Assembly (NCBI RefSeq): GCF_001641085.1
Contig: NZ_LXIE01000001.1
Span: 248,001 to 312,000, forward strand
Source of the DNA: Aequorivita soesokkakensis
Lineage (GTDB): Bacteria > Bacteroidota > Bacteroidia > Flavobacteriales > Flavobacteriaceae
Length of the DNA stretch: 64,000 nt
Reading direction: 5' to 3'
Part shown: positions 3,121 to 46,313 of the stretch, piece after piece
How positions within the stretch are numbered: position 1 is the stretch's first letter
How the letters are laid out: each line of letters starts with the position of its first letter
Notes under the pieces: model-generated
Told to the model about the DNA's origin: nothing
Database searches by the model: none
The model's input: only the letters and a program-made list of their open reading frames with translations
Made by a program: the position numbers and the translations under genes

Positions 3121-5043
3121 ATGCAGTTTAAAAACCCAGAAATTCTTTACGCCCTTTTCCTACTGCTCATCCCCATATTTATTCACCTTTTCCAACTTCG
3201 GCGTTTCCAAAAAGTAGATTTTACCAATGTCGCTTTTCTTAAAAAGGTGACCATCCAAACCCGAAAAAGTTCGCAGCTAAAAAAATGGCTTACTTTGCTG
3301 ATGCGTTTGCTCGCATTGGCCTGTATTATTGTAGCATTTGCACAACCCTTCACCGCTTCAAAAACTGCTTTGAACACCAAAAAAGAAACGGTTGTTTACA
3401 TTGACAATTCGTTCAGTCTGCAGGCAAAAGGAGACAAAGGCCCAATATTGGAGCGGGCTTTGCAGGATTTGTTTGATAAAACTTCAGGAGCCGAAAAATT
3501 AAGTTGGTTCACGAACAGTTCCGAACGCAAAAATACCTCACCCCAAGATTTCAAAAACGAAATACTTTCTGTTGAATATTCCCAAAACCAACTCACGCCG
3601 AACCAGGTTTTGTTGAAAGCAAACCAACTTTTTTCCAATGAAAAAGATGTTTTGAAAAGACTGGTTTACATTTCAGATTTTCAGCAAAAGGAAACTTTTC
3701 CAGAAATTCCAGAAAATTTAACCGTGGACGCTGTTCAGTTAAAGCCCGTAAAAGCATCAAATATCGCTATTGACAGTGTTTATATTGCTTCAAATAATAC
3801 TGCCGCAACCCAGTTGAAAGTGAAAGTTTCAAAACGTGGAAATGCTGTTTCGGAAACTCCAATTTCACTTTACAACAATGGAAAACTGATTGCAAAAACA
3901 GCTCCGGATTTTTCGGGCAACGCAGATGGCACGGTTACTTTTGACATCGATAATTCCGAAGGTTTTATTGGGAAACTGGAGCTTAACGAACCCAACCTTC
4001 CTTTTGACAATACCTTGTTTTTCAGCATCAATAAACCCGCAAAAATTAAAGTATTGGCAATAAATGAAGCCGATGGAAATTTTATGCGCCGACTTTTTGA
4101 GAAAGAGGAATTCAAGTTTACGCAGCAAACTTTCAAAACACTGAACTATAACGAAATTCCGGACCAAAACTTCATCGTTTTAAATGAGTTGAAAGAAATT
4201 CCCGCTTCCTTGGCAACCGCTCTGAAATCTTTTACGGATGAAGGTGGAAGTGTTTTGGTAATTCCAGCTTCTGAAGTGGAATTGGGCAGCTATAATAATT
4301 TTCTTTTAACGATGTCTTTGGGAACATTTTCAGAAGAAATACAGCAGGAAAAAAAGATTGCGAAAATATATTTTTCACATCCGTTATTTAAAAATGTTTT
4401 TGAAAAGGAAGTTGTAAATTTCCAATATCCGAAGGTAAATTCCTTTTATGCTATTTCAACCAACGCAACGCCGGCCATAGGTTTTGAGGATAATCAGCCA
4501 TTTTTGGTGCAAAAAAATAAAACTTATTTACTGACTGCTGCAATCAATAACGAGAATTCAAATTTTCAGAATTCACCTTTGATCGTTCCGGCGCTTTATA
4601 ATATGGCTTTGCAAAGCCTGCCTTTGCCGCGCTTGTATTACACTATCGGAAGCCAAAATTCCATCGCTATTCCAGTGAAATTGGGACCGGATGAAATTTT
4701 AACAATCAAAGACAGTACCGCCCAGTTTATCCCACTTCAGCAAACAAAAGCTAACTTTGTGTTGATGACTACAACTGATGAGCCCCATAAAGCTGGCAAT
4801 TTCCAGGTTGTGAAAGAAAATGAATTCTTGGAAAACATTAGTTACAATTATGCCCGCGACGAAAGTGAATTGCAATACTTAAATCCTGAGGATTGGAAAG
4901 GCGCAGAAGTCTATAAAACGGTGGATGATCTATTTGATTCGATTGCCGATGCAAATTCAATCAACAGTTTTTGGAAATGGTTTGCTATTTTTGCATTGCT
5001 CTTTTTACTTTTTGAAATGCTTATCTTAAAATTCTACAAATGA
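3121..5043 (+). CDS. BatA-type membrane protein with von Willebrand-like region
   Basis: A 640-residue protein. The N-terminal 85 residues form the BatA region (FKNPEILYALFLLLIPIFIH, then basic LRRF and VDFTNVAFLKKV segments and a second membrane helix). Next comes a large soluble region that begins like a von Willebrand A fold (VVYIDNSFSLQ), and the protein ends with one membrane helix at about 615-636. Such proteins lie in the inner membrane with the large domain in the periplasm. The family is related to the Bat (Bacteroides aerotolerance) proteins, but the function is unknown. Its TGA overlaps the ATG of the dihydroorotase-like gene, so the two are translationally coupled. Confidence 0.85.
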   Translation: MQFKNPEILYALFLLLIPIFIHLFQLRRFQKVDFTNVAFLKKVTIQTRKSSQLKKWLTLLMRLLALACIIVAFAQPFTASKTALNTKKETVVYIDNSFSLQAKGDKGPILERALQDLFDKTSGAEKLSWFTNSSERKNTSPQDFKNEILSVEYSQNQLTPNQVLLKANQLFSNEKDVLKRLVYISDFQQKETFPEIPENLTVDAVQLKPVKASNIAIDSVYIASNNTAATQLKVKVSKRGNAVSETPISLYNNGKLIAKTAPDFSGNADGTVTFDIDNSEGFIGKLELNEPNLPFDNTLFFSINKPAKIKVLAINEADGNFMRRLFEKEEFKFTQQTFKTLNYNEIPDQNFIVLNELKEIPASLATALKSFTDEGGSVLVIPASEVELGSYNNFLLTMSLGTFSEEIQQEKKIAKIYFSHPLFKNVFEKEVVNFQYPKVNSFYAISTNATPAIGFEDNQPFLVQKNKTYLLTAAINNENSNFQNSPLIVPALYNMALQSLPLPRLYYTIGSQNSIAIPVKLGPDEILTIKDSTAQFIPLQQTKANFVLMTTTDEPHKAGNFQVVKENEFLENISYNYARDESELQYLNPEDWKGAEVYKTVDDLFDSIADANSINSFWKWFAIFALLFLLFEMLILKFYK

Positions 5044-6296
5044 AGATATTACTGAAATCTGCCACCATTGTTGATGCTTCCAGCAAGCATCACATGAAAA
5101 AAAGGGATGTTTTGATTGAAAACGGTAAAATTTCAAAAATTGCCGCTACTATTTCTTCTTCCGAAAAAGTAAAGGAAATTTCACTGAAAAATCTTCATAT
5201 TTCGCAAGGTTGGTTTGATAGCAGTGTCTCTTTTGGAGAACCCGGCTTTGAAGAACGGGAAACTGTTGAAAACGGTTTAAAAACTGCTGCCCACAGCGGT
5301 TTTACAAGTGTTGCGGTAAATGCCAATAGTTTTCCCATAACCGACAGTAAAGGGCATATCAAGTTTTTGAAAAGCAAAGCCGAAGGAAATGCAGTTAGCC
5401 TCTACCCTATTGGCGCGCTCACTGTGGGCAGTAAAGGAATAGATTTGGCGGAACTATTTGATATGAAAAGTGAAGGTGCGGTTTCATTTTATGATTATAA
5501 AAGTCCAATCGCAAATGCAAACCTTTTAAAGATAGCGCTGCAATACACCCAAAATTTTGATGGACTGGTTCAATCATTTCCTTTTGAAAAATCTGTTGCT
5601 AGAAATGGAATGGTGAATGAAGAAGTAACCAGCACCCGCTTGGGATTGAAAGGAATTCCGGCGCTTTCTGAAGAACTGCAGATAATTAGGGATTTGTATA
5701 TTTTGGAATATACCGGCGGAAAGCTTCACATTCCCACTATTTCCACTAAAAAATCGGTAGAACTTATTAAGGACGCTAAGAAAAAAGGGCTGAATGTAAC
5801 CTGCAGTGTTTCAATTTTCAACCTTGTTTTAACGGACGAAGCTTTGGAAGATTTTGATACAAACTACAAATTGTTGCCTCCACTCCGCACAAAAGAAGAT
5901 ACAAAAGCCTTGTTAAAAGGCCTAAAAGATGGAACAATTGATGGCATTACCAGCGATCACAACCCGATTGATGTAGAACATAAAAAAACTGAATTTGATC
6001 ACGCTTTCTTCGGAAGCATTGGCTTGGAGGGATGTTTTGGAGCAATCAATACAACTTTGGGAATTGAAGAATCCGTCAAAGTATTAACTGGTTTGAAAAA
6101 AACTTTTAATATTCCTTCAGTAAAAATTGAAGAAGGAAATCTTGCGGAATTTACACTTTTTAATCCCGATGAAAGCTGGGAGTTTTCAGAAAAGGATATT
6201 CTTTCAACCTCCAAAAATGCTGCATTATTGGGGATGAAGCTAAAAGGAAACGCTTACGGGATTTTTGCGAACAATCAATTGGTGCTAAATAAATAA
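5040..6296 (+). CDS. Dihydroorotase-like amidohydrolase lacking metal ligands
   Basis: A 418-residue protein with the full length and fold pattern of type I dihydroorotases, the enzymes that cyclise carbamoyl aspartate in pyrimidine synthesis. The catalytic metal site is largely missing. The usual DxHxH motif is replaced by DSSVSFGEPG at about residue 60, so both His are gone. The central His positions are also replaced (QSFPFEK; LHIPTIST). Only the late Asp, in TSDHNPI, is kept. By analogy with inactive dihydroorotases that support aspartate transcarbamylase, a structural role is possible. It overlaps its upstream neighbour by 4 nt and the next gene by 1 nt. Automatic pipelines would call it pyrC. 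Confidence 0.85.
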   Translation: MKILLKSATIVDASSKHHMKKRDVLIENGKISKIAATISSSEKVKEISLKNLHISQGWFDSSVSFGEPGFEERETVENGLKTAAHSGFTSVAVNANSFPITDSKGHIKFLKSKAEGNAVSLYPIGALTVGSKGIDLAELFDMKSEGAVSFYDYKSPIANANLLKIALQYTQNFDGLVQSFPFEKSVARNGMVNEEVTSTRLGLKGIPALSEELQIIRDLYILEYTGGKLHIPTISTKKSVELIKDAKKKGLNVTCSVSIFNLVLTDEALEDFDTNYKLLPPLRTKEDTKALLKGLKDGTIDGITSDHNPIDVEHKKTEFDHAFFGSIGLEGCFGAINTTLGIEESVKVLTGLKKTFNIPSVKIEEGNLAEFTLFNPDESWEFSEKDILSTSKNAALLGMKLKGNAYGIFANNQLVLNK

Positions 6297-12895: not shown

Positions 12896-15673
12896 TTGAG
12901 TACGGAAACAGTAGATATAAAAAAAAACATCCTTATCCAGGGTGCAAAACTTCACAATCTTAAAGATATTTCGGTAGCAATACCGCGCAATAAATTAGTA
13001 GTTGTAACGGGACTTTCCGGTAGCGGAAAATCAAGTTTGGCGTTTGACACACTTTATGCCGAAGGCCAACGCCGCTATGTTGAAAGCCTTTCCAGCTATG
13101 CTCGCCAATTTTTGGGAAGACTGGATAAACCTAAAGTAGATTCCATAAAAGGAATTGCTCCCGCTATTGCAATCGAGCAAAAAGTAAATTCAACAAACCC
13201 ACGTTCCACTGTTGGAACTTCCACTGAAATTTATGATTATCTGAAATTGCTTTATACTCGAATAGGGAAAACAATTTCTCCTATTTCCCAAAAAGAAGTT
13301 AAAAAAGACACTACCACAGATGTTATAAATTTCATAAAAAATTTTGGTGAAAATGAAAAATTGCTGCTCCTCGCCCCAATTTTTTTAGAGGAAGGACGCA
13401 CGATGGAAAATAAAATCCAAGCGTTGGCACAACAAGGTTATTCCAGAATTAAGGTGAAAGGTGAAGTTATTCGTATTGATGAGCTGGACGAAAAAACGTT
13501 TCCTAAAAAAGTAGATTTGGTCATTGACCGAATCATTACTAAAAACGATGAAGATTTTTACAATCGTTTGGCAGATGCAATTGAAATAGCATTTTTTGAG
13601 GGCAAAGGTGAGTTATATATTGAGGAAATTTCATCAAATAAAGTTACGGAATTCAACAATCGTTTTGAAGCCGATGGAATGGTCTTTATGGAACCAAACG
13701 TCCATCTTTTCAGTTTTAACAACCCATACGGCGCTTGTCCCACTTGTGAAGGCTACGGTGACGTTATTGGCATTGACGAAGATTTGGTTATTCCAAATAC
13801 TTCGCTTTCAATCTTTGAAAATGCAATATTTCCATGGCGAGGGGAAAGCATGAGTTGGTATCGCGATCAATTGGTGAACAATGCTTATAAATTTGACTTT
13901 CCCATCCACAAACCTTGGTTTCAGCTTACAGATCAGCAAAAACAATTGGTCTGGGATGGCAATAAATATTTTGAAGGATTAAACTCGTTCTTTTCATTTT
14001 TGGAATCTAAAAGCTATAAAATCCAAAATAGAGTGATGCTTTCGCGCTACAGAGGAAAAACAAAATGCACAACCTGTAAGGGAAAAAGATTACGCCCCGA
14101 AGCTGGATATGTAAAAATAAACAGTACCGCAATTCAGGAATTGGTGGAACTTCCTTTAGATAAAACCGCGATATTCTTTAAAAATTTAGAATTGTCTGAA
14201 TTTGAAGAAAAAGTTGCAAAACGATTACTACTAGAAATAAACAATCGTCTTCGCTTTTTGCAGGATGTTGGTTTAGGTTATCTAACATTGAATCGAAAGT
14301 CAAATACACTTTCGGGTGGAGAATCACAGCGTATCAATCTTGCTACCTCTTTGGGAAGCAGTCTTGTTGGTTCAATGTATATTTTGGACGAACCCAGTAT
14401 TGGGCTTCATCCAAAAGACACGGAAAGGCTTATCGTTGTTCTAAAATCCCTTCGTGATTTGGGCAATACCGTGATTGTTGTGGAACACGATGAGGATATT
14501 ATGAAAGCTGCCGATGAAATTATAGACATCGGCCCCGAAGCCGGAACCTTTGGCGGTGAAGTGGTTGCGCAAGGAAACTATGCTGAAATTTTAAAATCAG
14601 ATTCGTTGACTGCGAAATATTTAAATGGAGAAATGGAAATTGAAGTTCCAAAAAAACGACGTACTTCAAAAAACAAAATCACAATTAGTGGTGCGCGCCA
14701 AAACAATCTGAAAAATATAGACGTTACATTTCCTTTGAATATTTTCACAGCTGTTACTGGCGTTTCCGGTAGCGGGAAAAGTACCTTAGTGAAGAAAATT
14801 CTTTATCCAGCTTTGCTTCGTGAAATTGGCGGTTATGGTGAAAAACCTGGTCAGTTTTCAGAAATAAAAGGTGATTTTGGTACAATAAAAAGTATCGAAT
14901 TTATTGACCAAAACCCAATTGGCCGCTCCAGCCGAAGCAATCCCGTAACCTATATTAAGGCTTATGATGATATTCGCAATCTGTATGCCTCGCAGAAACT
15001 TTCGGACATCCGTGGGTACAAAGCAAAACATTTCAGTTTCAACGTTGATGGCGGCCGTTGCGAAACCTGCAAAGGCGAAGGCGAAGTAACTATCGAGATG
15101 CAATTTATGGCAGATGTACATTTGCTCTGCGACACCTGTAATGGCAAACGTTTCAAAAAAGAGGTGTTGGAAGTAACTTTTCAAGGTAAAAATATTGATG
15201 ACATTCTTACGATGACCGTTGATGACGCTGTTACTTTTTTTGGAGAGAACAAACAAGATAAAATTTCAGCAAAACTCCAGCCTTTACAAGATGTGGGGCT
15301 TGGCTATGTACAGCTGGGCCAAAGCTCCTCTACCCTTTCTGGTGGTGAGGCGCAGCGAATTAAGCTCGCTTCGTTTTTGGTTAAAGGAACTTCAAAAGAA
15401 AAAACTGTTTTCATTTTTGACGAACCCACCACGGGACTTCATTTTCACGATATAAAAAAACTGTTGGCTTCCTTTTATGCTTTGTTAGATAGAGGGCATA
15501 CGGTGATTGTAGTGGAGCATAATATTGATTTAATTAAATGCGCAGACCACATAATAGATTTAGGACCTGAAGGTGGTGAAAACGGTGGAAAAATTGTTGC
15601 TGAGGGAACTCCGGAAGAAGTCGCAAAGAACAAGAAATCCTTTACTGCGGAATATTTGAAAGAGAAAATTTAG
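12896..15673 (+). CDS. uvrA: Excinuclease ABC subunit UvrA
   Basis: A 925-residue damage-recognition ATPase of nucleotide excision repair. It has two ABC modules: Walker [10 protein letters not shown] at about residue 40 and GVSGSGKST at about 625; signature [12 protein letters not shown] and [12 protein letters not shown]; Walker [13 protein letters not shown] and [12 protein letters not shown]. Zinc modules are visible as [16 protein letters not shown] and CETCKGEG with CDTCNGKR. The start is TTG with a purine-rich AAGGAAA upstream; no ATG alternative gives a full N terminus. Length is normal for the family. Confidence 0.97.
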
Positions 15674-32941: not shown

Positions 32942-34049
32942 ATGACTACAACAGACCAAATCAAAGACCTTAAGTCGCGGCTGGACGCCTTGAGGCGCTA
33001 TCTTTGACATTGCTGGCAAAAATATAGAGATTACCAACGACGAAGAAAAAACCTTTGATCCCAACTTTTGGAACAACCCGCGCGAAGCTGAAGCTTTTAT
33101 GAAGGTTTTGCGTACCAAAAAAAAATGGGTAACAGATTTTGAAGCAGCTTTAAATTTTACCGAAGAAACCGAAATTCTGCTCGATTTTTATAAAGAAGGC
33201 GAAGGCACTGCTGAACAGGTTGATGCCGCATTTGAAAAAGCCGAAAATGCTATTGAGGCATTGGAATTCCGTAATATGCTTGGCGAAGAAGGCGATGATA
33301 TGAGTGCCGTACTTCAAATTACGGCCGGCGCTGGCGGAACCGAAAGCTGTGATTGGGCACAAATGCTTATGCGCATGTACCTAATGTGGGCGCAAAAAAA
33401 CGGTTATAAAGTAAAGGAACTCAACTTTCAGGCGGGCGATGTTGCTGGCGTAAAAACTGTAACCTTGGAAATTGAGGGCGAATACGCCTTTGGTTGGTTA
33501 AAAAGTGAAAATGGAGTCCACCGATTAGTGCGTATTTCCCCTTTTGATAGTAATGCAAAACGGCACACAAGTTTTGCGAGTGTTTATGTTTATCCGTTGG
33601 TGGATGATACCATTGAGATTGAAATAAACCCGGCCGATATTTCCTGGGATTTTGCCCGAAGCAGCGGTGCCGGTGGACAAAACGTAAATAAGGTTGAAAC
33701 AAAAGCCATTCTTACCCACCACCCTACCGGAATTGTAATTCACAATAGTGAAACGCGCAGTCAATTGGATAATCGCGAAAAAGCGATGCAGATGCTTAAG
33801 TCGCAATTGTATGAAATTGAACTGCGGAAACAACTTGCCCAACGTGCCGAAATAGAAGATAGCAAATTGGCTATAGAATGGGGCTCGCAGATCCGGAATT
33901 ATGTTTTGCACCCTTATAAATTGGTTAAAGACGTTCGTACTGCGCACGAAACCGGAAACACCGACGCTATGCTTGATGGTGAGATTGACGAATTTTTAAA
34001 GGCGTATTTGATGATGACTGGACAGAAAGAGAAAAAAGATGAGATTTAA
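32942..34049 (+). CDS. prfB: Peptide chain release factor 2, programmed +1 frameshift
   Basis: RF2 of 368 residues, translated in two frames. The first 21 codons from the ATG at 32942 end at an in-frame TGA (33005-33007) within CTT TGA C. A +1 slip continues in the frame that runs to 34049. RF2 features: SPF-type tripeptide in RISPFDSNAKRHTSFAS, and the catalytic GGQ in SSGAGGQNVNKVETKA. It releases peptides at UGA and UAA, and the frameshift lets RF2 regulate its own level. A naive ORF caller starts only at 33099 and loses the N-terminal helices. Confidence 0.95.
32999..33008 (+). promoter_or_regulatory. prfB +1 frameshift site (TAT CTT TGA C)
   Basis: TATCTTTGAC is identical to the classical RF2 recoding site. 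A GAGG at 32992-32995 lies where the stimulatory Shine-Dalgarno-like AGGGGG lies in E. coli; it is weaker here. Reading CTT, skipping one T and continuing at GAC joins the two frames exactly. Confidence 0.95.
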
Positions 34050-34053
34050 AAAA

Positions 34054-34092
34054 CAAAGGGAACAAGATTTGAAAAAATCTTCGTTCCCTTTG
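34054..34092 (-). terminator. Hairpin terminator behind the TPP-like aptamer
   Basis: CAAAGGGAAC...AAGATTT pairs with AAATCTT...GTTCCCTTTG. The run of six T needed for intrinsic termination is on the minus strand, directly after the aptamer at 34096-34181. It can also stop prfB from the plus strand, but with a poorer T run. Confidence 0.8.
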
Positions 34093-34095
34093 CAA

Positions 34096-34181
34096 ATCAT
34101 ATTTCTTCTGTTGGCATTATCCTTCGAAGTTCGACGGGTATAATCTCAGCTGTTATGAAAACTTAAGCACCCCGATATGAT
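34096..34181 (-). ncRNA. TPP-riboswitch-like aptamer without a thiamine gene
   Basis: On the minus strand the conserved thi-box blocks occur in the right order: GGGGTGC, GCTGAGA, ACCC, GAAC and GGATAATGCC. They are enclosed by a P1 stem of ATCATAT and ATATGAT. The usual GAACCTG segment is shortened to GAACTTCG, so the element is divergent. A terminator follows at once, the normal expression platform. Beyond it lies only prfB on the opposite strand, so no thiamine gene is under its control. Confidence 0.75.
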
Positions 34182-34248
34182 AGTCTTATAAAAGTACGAT
34201 ATTAAAATTTATAAGCACGTTGCTTTTTCAAAACTTTAACATTGAAAA

Positions 34249-34419
34249 TTAACTGCGCTTTCTGCCCACAAAATCTGTAGTCCAAAATACAAGTAATAGA
34301 ATTACAAAAATACCGCTTATGTATTTTGCAGGCTCTAATCCCCCATCTCCAAGGCCTATAAACCCAATAACGCCAAACACAATGGCCAAAATAATATAGA
34401 TTGCTTTCCAGTGAAGCAT
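34249..34419 (-). CDS. Small DUF1328-like membrane protein
   Basis: A 56-residue protein starting at the ATG at 34419. It has two hydrophobic helices (YIILAIVFGVIGFIGLG and YISGIFVILLLVFW), an MLHWKAI opening and a basic end (GRKRS). The pattern resembles the DUF1328/YtjA small membrane proteins. It is preceded by AT-rich DNA and followed 67 bp later by the TPP-like aptamer on the same strand. The function is unknown. Confidence 0.65.
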   Translation of the reverse strand: MLHWKAIYIILAIVFGVIGFIGLGDGGLEPAKYISGIFVILLLVFWTTDFVGRKRS

Positions 34420-45781: not shown

Positions 45782-45833
45782 AATAAAAAAAGGGAACCAA
45801 ATTGGTTCCCTTTTTAAATATATTATAGTTTGA
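45782..45833 (+). repeat. 52-bp direct repeat containing a terminator (copy 1)
   Basis: AGGGAACCAA-ATT-GGTTCCCT hairpin followed by TTTTTAAATATATTATAG. The copy at 46259-46310 is identical over about 52 bp. This copy ends the receptor gene. Confidence 0.9.
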
Positions 45834-45885
45834 TTTATGATTTAAAAATAAATAAATTACAAATTAATTATATATTTAGAAAATA

Positions 45886-46258: not shown

Positions 46259-46310
46259 AATAAAAAAAGGGAACCAAATTGGTTCCCTTTTTAAATATAT
46301 TATAGTTTGA
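46259..46310. repeat. 52-bp direct repeat containing a terminator (copy 2)
   Basis: Identical to 45782-45833. This copy lies 3 bp from the stop of the small gene on the minus strand and provides a perfect T run in that direction. Confidence 0.9.
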
Positions 46311-46313
46311 AAT

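Follow-up and report, generated by a model that had tools for sequence, protein, structure and literature searches.

In the 64-kb window, by which we mean the whole stretch of Aequorivita soesokkakensis DNA analyzed here, the minus strand carries a TPP-type (THI-box) aptamer and, directly after it, an intrinsic terminator; together they face prfB, the gene for release factor RF2 (Table 1). The aptamer boxes GGGGTGC, GCTGAGA, ACCC, and GGATAATGCC (GGGGUGC, CUGAGA, ACCC, and UAAU in the core of the RNA) are present in the correct order on that strand and are all enclosed by P1. An earlier note on this sequence had pointed out this box order, and the coordinates it gave, 34096 to 34181, run exactly from P1 to P1. 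Its description of a same-strand terminator and of an orphan element facing prfB also held: the terminator consists of GCAAAGGGAACGAAGATTTTTTCAAATCTTGTTCCCTTTG and then TTTTTT (34093 to 34048, minus strand), the plus strand has no T run at the hairpin, the terminator ends where it meets the prfB stop codon, and no thiamine gene lies behind it in the window.

Table 1 Features of the RNA locus and its convergent neighbor
Feature	Coordinates	Strand	Basis or remark
prfB (RF2), convergent neighbor, outside the RNA	32943..34049	+	Start at 32943; adjacent ortholog in most Aequorivita and some other genera
Candidate stand-alone RNA gene (aptamer plus terminator), ~139 nt	34046..34184	-	Covariance model R1, 162.6 bits
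Predicted -7 promoter box TACTTTTA (TAnnTTTA)	34189..34196	-	Sequence; upstream enrichment of the box
TPP-type (THI-box) aptamer domain	34086..34184	-	RF00059 match; covariation
P1 5' strand AUCAUAU	34175..34181	-	Pairs with 34102-34096; 7/7 pairs changed on both sides (77 sequences)
P1 3' strand AUAUGAU	34096..34102	-	Pairs with 34181-34175; 7/7 pairs changed on both sides (77 sequences)
Intrinsic terminator hairpin; lower stem CAAAGGGAA/UUCCCUUUG fixed in sequence	34053..34093	-	Fold; covariation in both stem halves
Terminator U run (TTTTTT)	34048..34053	-	Sequence

prfB itself has the classical in-frame stop and a programmed +1 frameshift site, CTTTGAC, near 33003 (32943 to 33009, plus strand); the 316-aa ORF at 33099 is only the post-frameshift part of the gene. 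On the other side of the RNA, positions 34256 to 34419 (minus strand) hold a 54-aa membrane-type ORF (MLHWKAIYIILAIVFG...) with no Pfam match, which immediately precedes the RNA in most Aequorivita and is absent from two loci (L032/L033). Elsewhere in the window, a ~50-bp direct repeat, AAAAAAAGGGAACCAAATTGGTTCCCTTTTTAAATATATTATAGTTTGA (45787 to 45835 and 46264 to 46312), forms a bidirectional terminator-like hairpin that flanks a small ORF; this repeat is a duplicated 3' end.

The aptamer matches the TPP riboswitch family

In a search of all 4227 families, positions 34184 to 34086 (minus strand) matched RF00059, the TPP riboswitch, over its full length (model positions 1 to 105; 50.6 bits; E = 8.5e-9), with a score just under the gathering score of 54.3 bits. 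Given this E value, the match is not due to chance. The only other significant match at these positions was to one unrelated eukaryotic snoRNA model. At gathering thresholds, Rfam gives no match across the 64-kb window, and a plasmid BLAST search with the element likewise gave none. The window aptamer has GAACTTC, with CUUC/GAAG as P4 and a short P5. The earlier note had taken this segment to be a shortened GAACCTG and a sign of decay; the GAACTTC form is common to conserved relatives and does not indicate decay.

The unit has its own promoter box and terminator

The predicted transcription start is 34184, at the foot of P1. We placed it there because TACTTTTA sits at the distance of a flavobacterial -7 box, which for sigma-A is TAnnTTTG at -12 to -5 (PMC9723704). 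TAnnTTTA/G was found within 25 nt upstream of 67 of the 77 copies compared, versus 5.4% of control windows. The eighth base of the boxes found upstream of orphan RNAs is always A (TAnnTTTA), and the TPP leaders of TonB receptors use TAnnTTTG; the A form possibly represents a weaker or differently regulated promoter.

The terminator starts 2 to 5 nt past the aptamer, so that the unit (~135 nt) carries no attached mRNA. Sequence comparison indicates that the -7 box and the terminator belong to the unit and are kept regardless of its neighbors, as in a stand-alone small RNA gene.

The element is conserved in sequence and in structure

Within Aequorivita, the mean identity of the element was 87%, compared to 79% for prfB DNA, 55% for prfB third codon positions, and 42% for the upstream flank (20 to 90 nt upstream of the element). 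In an alignment of 77 distinct sequences, 96.5% of pair cells were paired, and 30 of the 39 pairs showed double changes. These double changes occurred in P1, P2, P3, P4, P5, and both halves of the terminator, and they filled 355 cells; shuffling gave 85 such cells, and sliding the partners gave no more than 58. By these comparisons, the element is under strong purifying selection.

Conservation of nothing but a prfB terminator hairpin, an outcome that the earlier note had allowed for, applies solely to three Aequorivita species (G014, G019, and G027) in which the aptamer is lost or degraded and the hairpin is retained; it does not apply elsewhere. Approximately four Aequorivita genomes have no convincing copy of the RNA. 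Because it is absent from these and decayed in the other three, the RNA is dispensable.

Distribution across Flavobacteriaceae

The alignment of 20 Aequorivita copies and one copy from another genus showed the same unit of box, aptamer, and terminator throughout. Using a covariance model built from Aequorivita (R1) and a family threshold of at least 60 bits, we found the aptamer-plus-terminator unit in 25 of 28 Aequorivita genomes and in 24 of 237 sampled Flavobacteriaceae genera. R1 scores leave a gap between the orphan copies (60 to 173 bits) and ordinary TPP leaders (below ~55 bits). A pattern scan of named genomes returned 71 matching stretches, mostly from Flavobacteriaceae, in Aequorivita, Altibacter, Gelidibacter, Winogradskyella, Arenibacter, Formosa, Hanstruepera, Robertkochia, Marinirhabdus, Christiangramia, and other genera. 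Two copies lie inside a single 8-kb stretch in Winogradskyella bathintestinalis and in another Flavobacteriaceae genome.

RF00059 had at least one match in 99 of 118 relatives. Nearly all Aequorivita have such matches beside prfB, on the opposite strand; outside the genus, the weak matches mostly represent ordinary leaders that precede a TonB receptor of ~730 aa. Spread to other families of the order was considered and rejected: the candidate R2 matches (53 to 60 bits; f11 and f15) proved to be ordinary TPP elements that precede a TonB receptor. At a further locus (L187/L319, G057:C1:627236-627353), long hairpins and a T run come after a TPP aptamer, and the adjoining 1.2 kb contain no obvious thiamine gene; this is perhaps a separate kind of orphan.

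The neighboring genes vary

prfB adjoins the RNA also in Altibacter and a few other genera; most other genera have the RNA elsewhere. Because the arrangement is shared with these genera, the location beside prfB is, as judged from the genomes compared, old in that lineage, and it is not a functional link. In four Aequorivita species (L034, L036, L045, and L051), other genes separate the element from prfB. One of these loci (L045, genome G017, ~4310 to 6100) has a second, weak model match beside prfB (G017:C1:2967981-2968052), where an inserted 503-aa surface-type gene, with paralogues in L036 and L051, may have duplicated the terminator end. The adjacent genes in other genera, which we named by eye from their sequences, are unrelated and include those for a quinone reductase, HisIE, RecG, glutamate racemase, a chloride channel, a TonB receptor, and a sterol desaturase-like protein.

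A convergent neighbor is the commonest orientation, and 10 of 33 loci have a same-strand gene 160 to 635 nt downstream. No thiamine gene was found behind the unit in the window, in Aequorivita, or in other genera, including these 10 loci. The RNA is therefore not in the same-strand position upstream of a thiamine gene that characterizes a cis TPP riboswitch, and the flanks of relatives did not reveal the thiamine operon that the earlier note had envisaged there.

The lower terminator stem is specific to this RNA

The lower terminator stem CAAAGGGAA/UUCCCUUUGU was found solely at this RNA (26 genomes). The closed motif CAAAGGGAA..TTCCCTTTGT likewise occurred only at this RNA in the 26 genomes that carry it and was absent from all 14 genomes that lack the RNA. 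The lower stem (CAAAGGGAA/UUCCCUUUG) is fixed in sequence, with CAAAGAGAA/UUCUCUUUG and CAAAGGAAA/UUUCCUUUG as covarying variants, in contrast to P1 and the upper stem, which drift. We considered whether it is a generic terminator; shorter AAAGGGAA..TTCCCTTT hairpins exist at four other places in the genome, but the closed form is unique to the RNA. The fixed sequence of this stem, set against the drift elsewhere, and the restriction of the closed motif to this RNA suggest that a protein or RNA partner makes contact with the lower stem. The RNA has no unstructured, sequence-conserved seed region.

An ordinary TPP leader is present elsewhere in the genome

ThiC is absent from the A. soesokkakensis genome and from 37 of the 40 genomes tested, and an ortholog of the TonB receptor is present in all 40. 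The thiamine TonB receptor of A. soesokkakensis (contig C34) is preceded by an ordinary TPP leader, which has a terminator of its own. An RF00059 scan of the 3.19-Mb genome gave no other passing TPP match beyond the orphan; the Rfam model overlooks the C34 leader because its P3 is long. P3 is strongly elongated and variable in the TonB-receptor leaders of Aequorivita (L294, on C34 at ~13900 to 15400 in this genome, and L295 to L304), and because these leaders fall below Rfam detection, Rfam counts of TPP elements in Aequorivita are too low. Since the receptor and its leader are both present, the regulated thiamine gene has not been lost, and the orphan is an additional element. Duplex energies of the RNA with the TonB leader were no better than those with shuffled leaders in 14 of 15 genomes, although this test is crude because long global duplexes dominate it.

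Interpretation and alternatives

Riboswitches are defined by their action on the mRNA that carries them, and only a handful of trans-acting cases are known. The unit described here, its structure, and its independence from any one neighbor are conserved across the copies aligned. We consider it fairly likely that positions 34184 to 34046 (minus strand) are the gene of a free-standing small RNA that contains a TPP-type aptamer and probably works in trans. The RNA would be transcribed from its own -7 box, with the aptamer at the 5' terminus from about +1 and the intrinsic terminator after it. Most likely, binding of TPP or a close thiamine derivative would then alter the folding, stability, or partner binding of the RNA. 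The sequence-fixed terminator stem (CAAAGRGAA/UUCYCUUUG) would serve as the contact site, by analogy with the ligand-regulated sRNAs Rli55 and SreA of Listeria. Such an RNA would act in trans and would probably supply a thiamine input in addition to the ordinary cis riboswitch that precedes the thiamine TonB receptor. More tentatively, and with somewhat less than even confidence, we propose that these RNAs form a Flavobacteriaceae-wide class of free-standing TPP-sensing sRNAs that would act in trans on thiamine metabolism or through a protein partner that binds the stem; each would be a riboregulator gene, not a riboswitch.

J4/5, on the pyrophosphate side, has diverged in the orphan RNAs (C77/G78 in thiM numbering are not conserved), while the pyrimidine pocket CUGAGA and the L5 UAAU are kept. 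This pattern could mean that a TPP-derived fold no longer binds TPP, and that the RNA is a constitutive structured sRNA or has changed its specificity to thiamine, TMP, or HMP derivatives. We regard this as unlikely: J4/5 also varies in the ordinary TPP elements of Flavobacteriaceae that precede the TonB receptor, and the RF00059 scores of the orphans fall inside the range of ordinary elements. Ligand binding is plausible, given the retained pyrimidine pocket and L5 boxes and the RF00059 match of every one of the 20 orphan copies tested from other genera (E ≤ 7e-5; 7 of the 20 above the 54.3-bit gathering score), and the orphan aptamer would bind TPP or a close thiamine derivative.

Similarly improbable is a cis attenuator, in which TPP would choose between termination at 34053 and read-through into the antisense of the convergent gene, here prfB. 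The terminator is directly 3' of the aptamer, the next gene is convergent in Aequorivita and at most other loci, and one SAM-I riboswitch works by antisense from such a position (PMC2258182). However, the convergent gene changes between genera, and the four Aequorivita loci listed above have genes between the element and prfB. In addition, a search for an antiterminator in the 77-sequence alignment yielded only the consensus helices and weak U-tract or P4/3'-arm pairings. With no conserved antiterminator helix, no overlap of P1 with the terminator, and a terminator that is both long and strong, a read-through switch is unlikely. Since genes intervene in four Aequorivita species and most other genera place the RNA elsewhere, we also do not consider it a regulator of prfB, and the suggestion of the earlier note that the element controls a prfB antisense RNA finds no support in the comparison.

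The RNA could also belong to the 3' UTR of the same-strand operon upstream (TonB receptor, DUF4249 protein, 596-aa protein, and 54-aa ORF), as its terminator or as an element through which TPP controls the formation or stability of the mRNA 3' end. In Aequorivita and in one other genus (g82; L165/L166), the RNA does lie directly downstream of that operon. Most copies nevertheless have their own -7 box, the upstream gene is on the other strand in many genera (L150 to L153, L156, L159, and L169), and the upstream genes are not thiamine related, so we give this explanation little credence. Finally, a relic of a thiamine operon lost beside prfB, as the earlier note favored, would accommodate the missing ThiC, the lack of a nearby thiamine gene, and the three visibly decayed Aequorivita copies. 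It is contradicted, however, by several findings: the element exceeds prfB DNA in conservation, 30 pairs carry compensatory changes, the unit has no thiamine gene behind it in 24 genera, and a thiamine receptor with its riboswitch is present elsewhere in the genome. We consider it highly improbable.

Relation to known systems

If the preferred reading of a stand-alone RNA is right, this compact and conserved RNA gene, built around a TPP aptamer and present in many culturable marine bacteria, would offer a clean system for studying how a metabolite-binding RNA works without an attached gene. It is also a warning that isolated TPP matches lacking a gene, of which some exceed the Rfam cutoff, should not be dismissed as relics or misassigned to their neighbors. 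Orphan high-scoring aptamers were noted in 2007 and read as "trans-acting or recently orphaned" (PMC2258182), and trans-acting riboswitches have been described as rare (PMC7266159). In a literature search that left most subscription journals outside its scope, we found no paper linking TPP riboswitches to prfB, to Aequorivita, or to small RNAs and Flavobacteriaceae together, and the relevant passages of the Flavobacterium psychrophilum transcriptome study (PMC9723704) do not mention the RNA. The aptamer type is known; for a conserved stand-alone TPP-aptamer RNA in Flavobacteriaceae, no description was found in the literature searched.

The RNA shares with the RF00059 TPP riboswitch the P1-to-P5 architecture, the four core boxes, and a full-length covariance model match. 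It differs in having no downstream gene, a short P3, a diverged J4/5, and a conserved 3' hairpin of its own, a terminator attached without switchable overlap. The HMP-PP riboswitch (thiS motif; PMC6478431) also couples a thiamine-pathway aptamer to a terminator, but there the aptamer is inside the terminator and precedes thiS genes, whereas here a separate hairpin follows a TPP-type aptamer. The antisense SAM-I riboswitch (PMC2258182) similarly combines an aptamer and a terminator facing a convergent gene; its convergent operon is ligand related and an antiterminator is present, and neither is the case here. SreA (SAM-I) and Rli55 (cobalamin) of Listeria and EutX, cited as rare cases in PMC7266159, likewise carry a ligand aptamer on a short terminated RNA and are proposed to act on mRNA or protein in trans. 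Compared with these, the RNA reported here is distinguished by its lack of a neighboring target operon, its TPP-type aptamer, and its family-wide occurrence.
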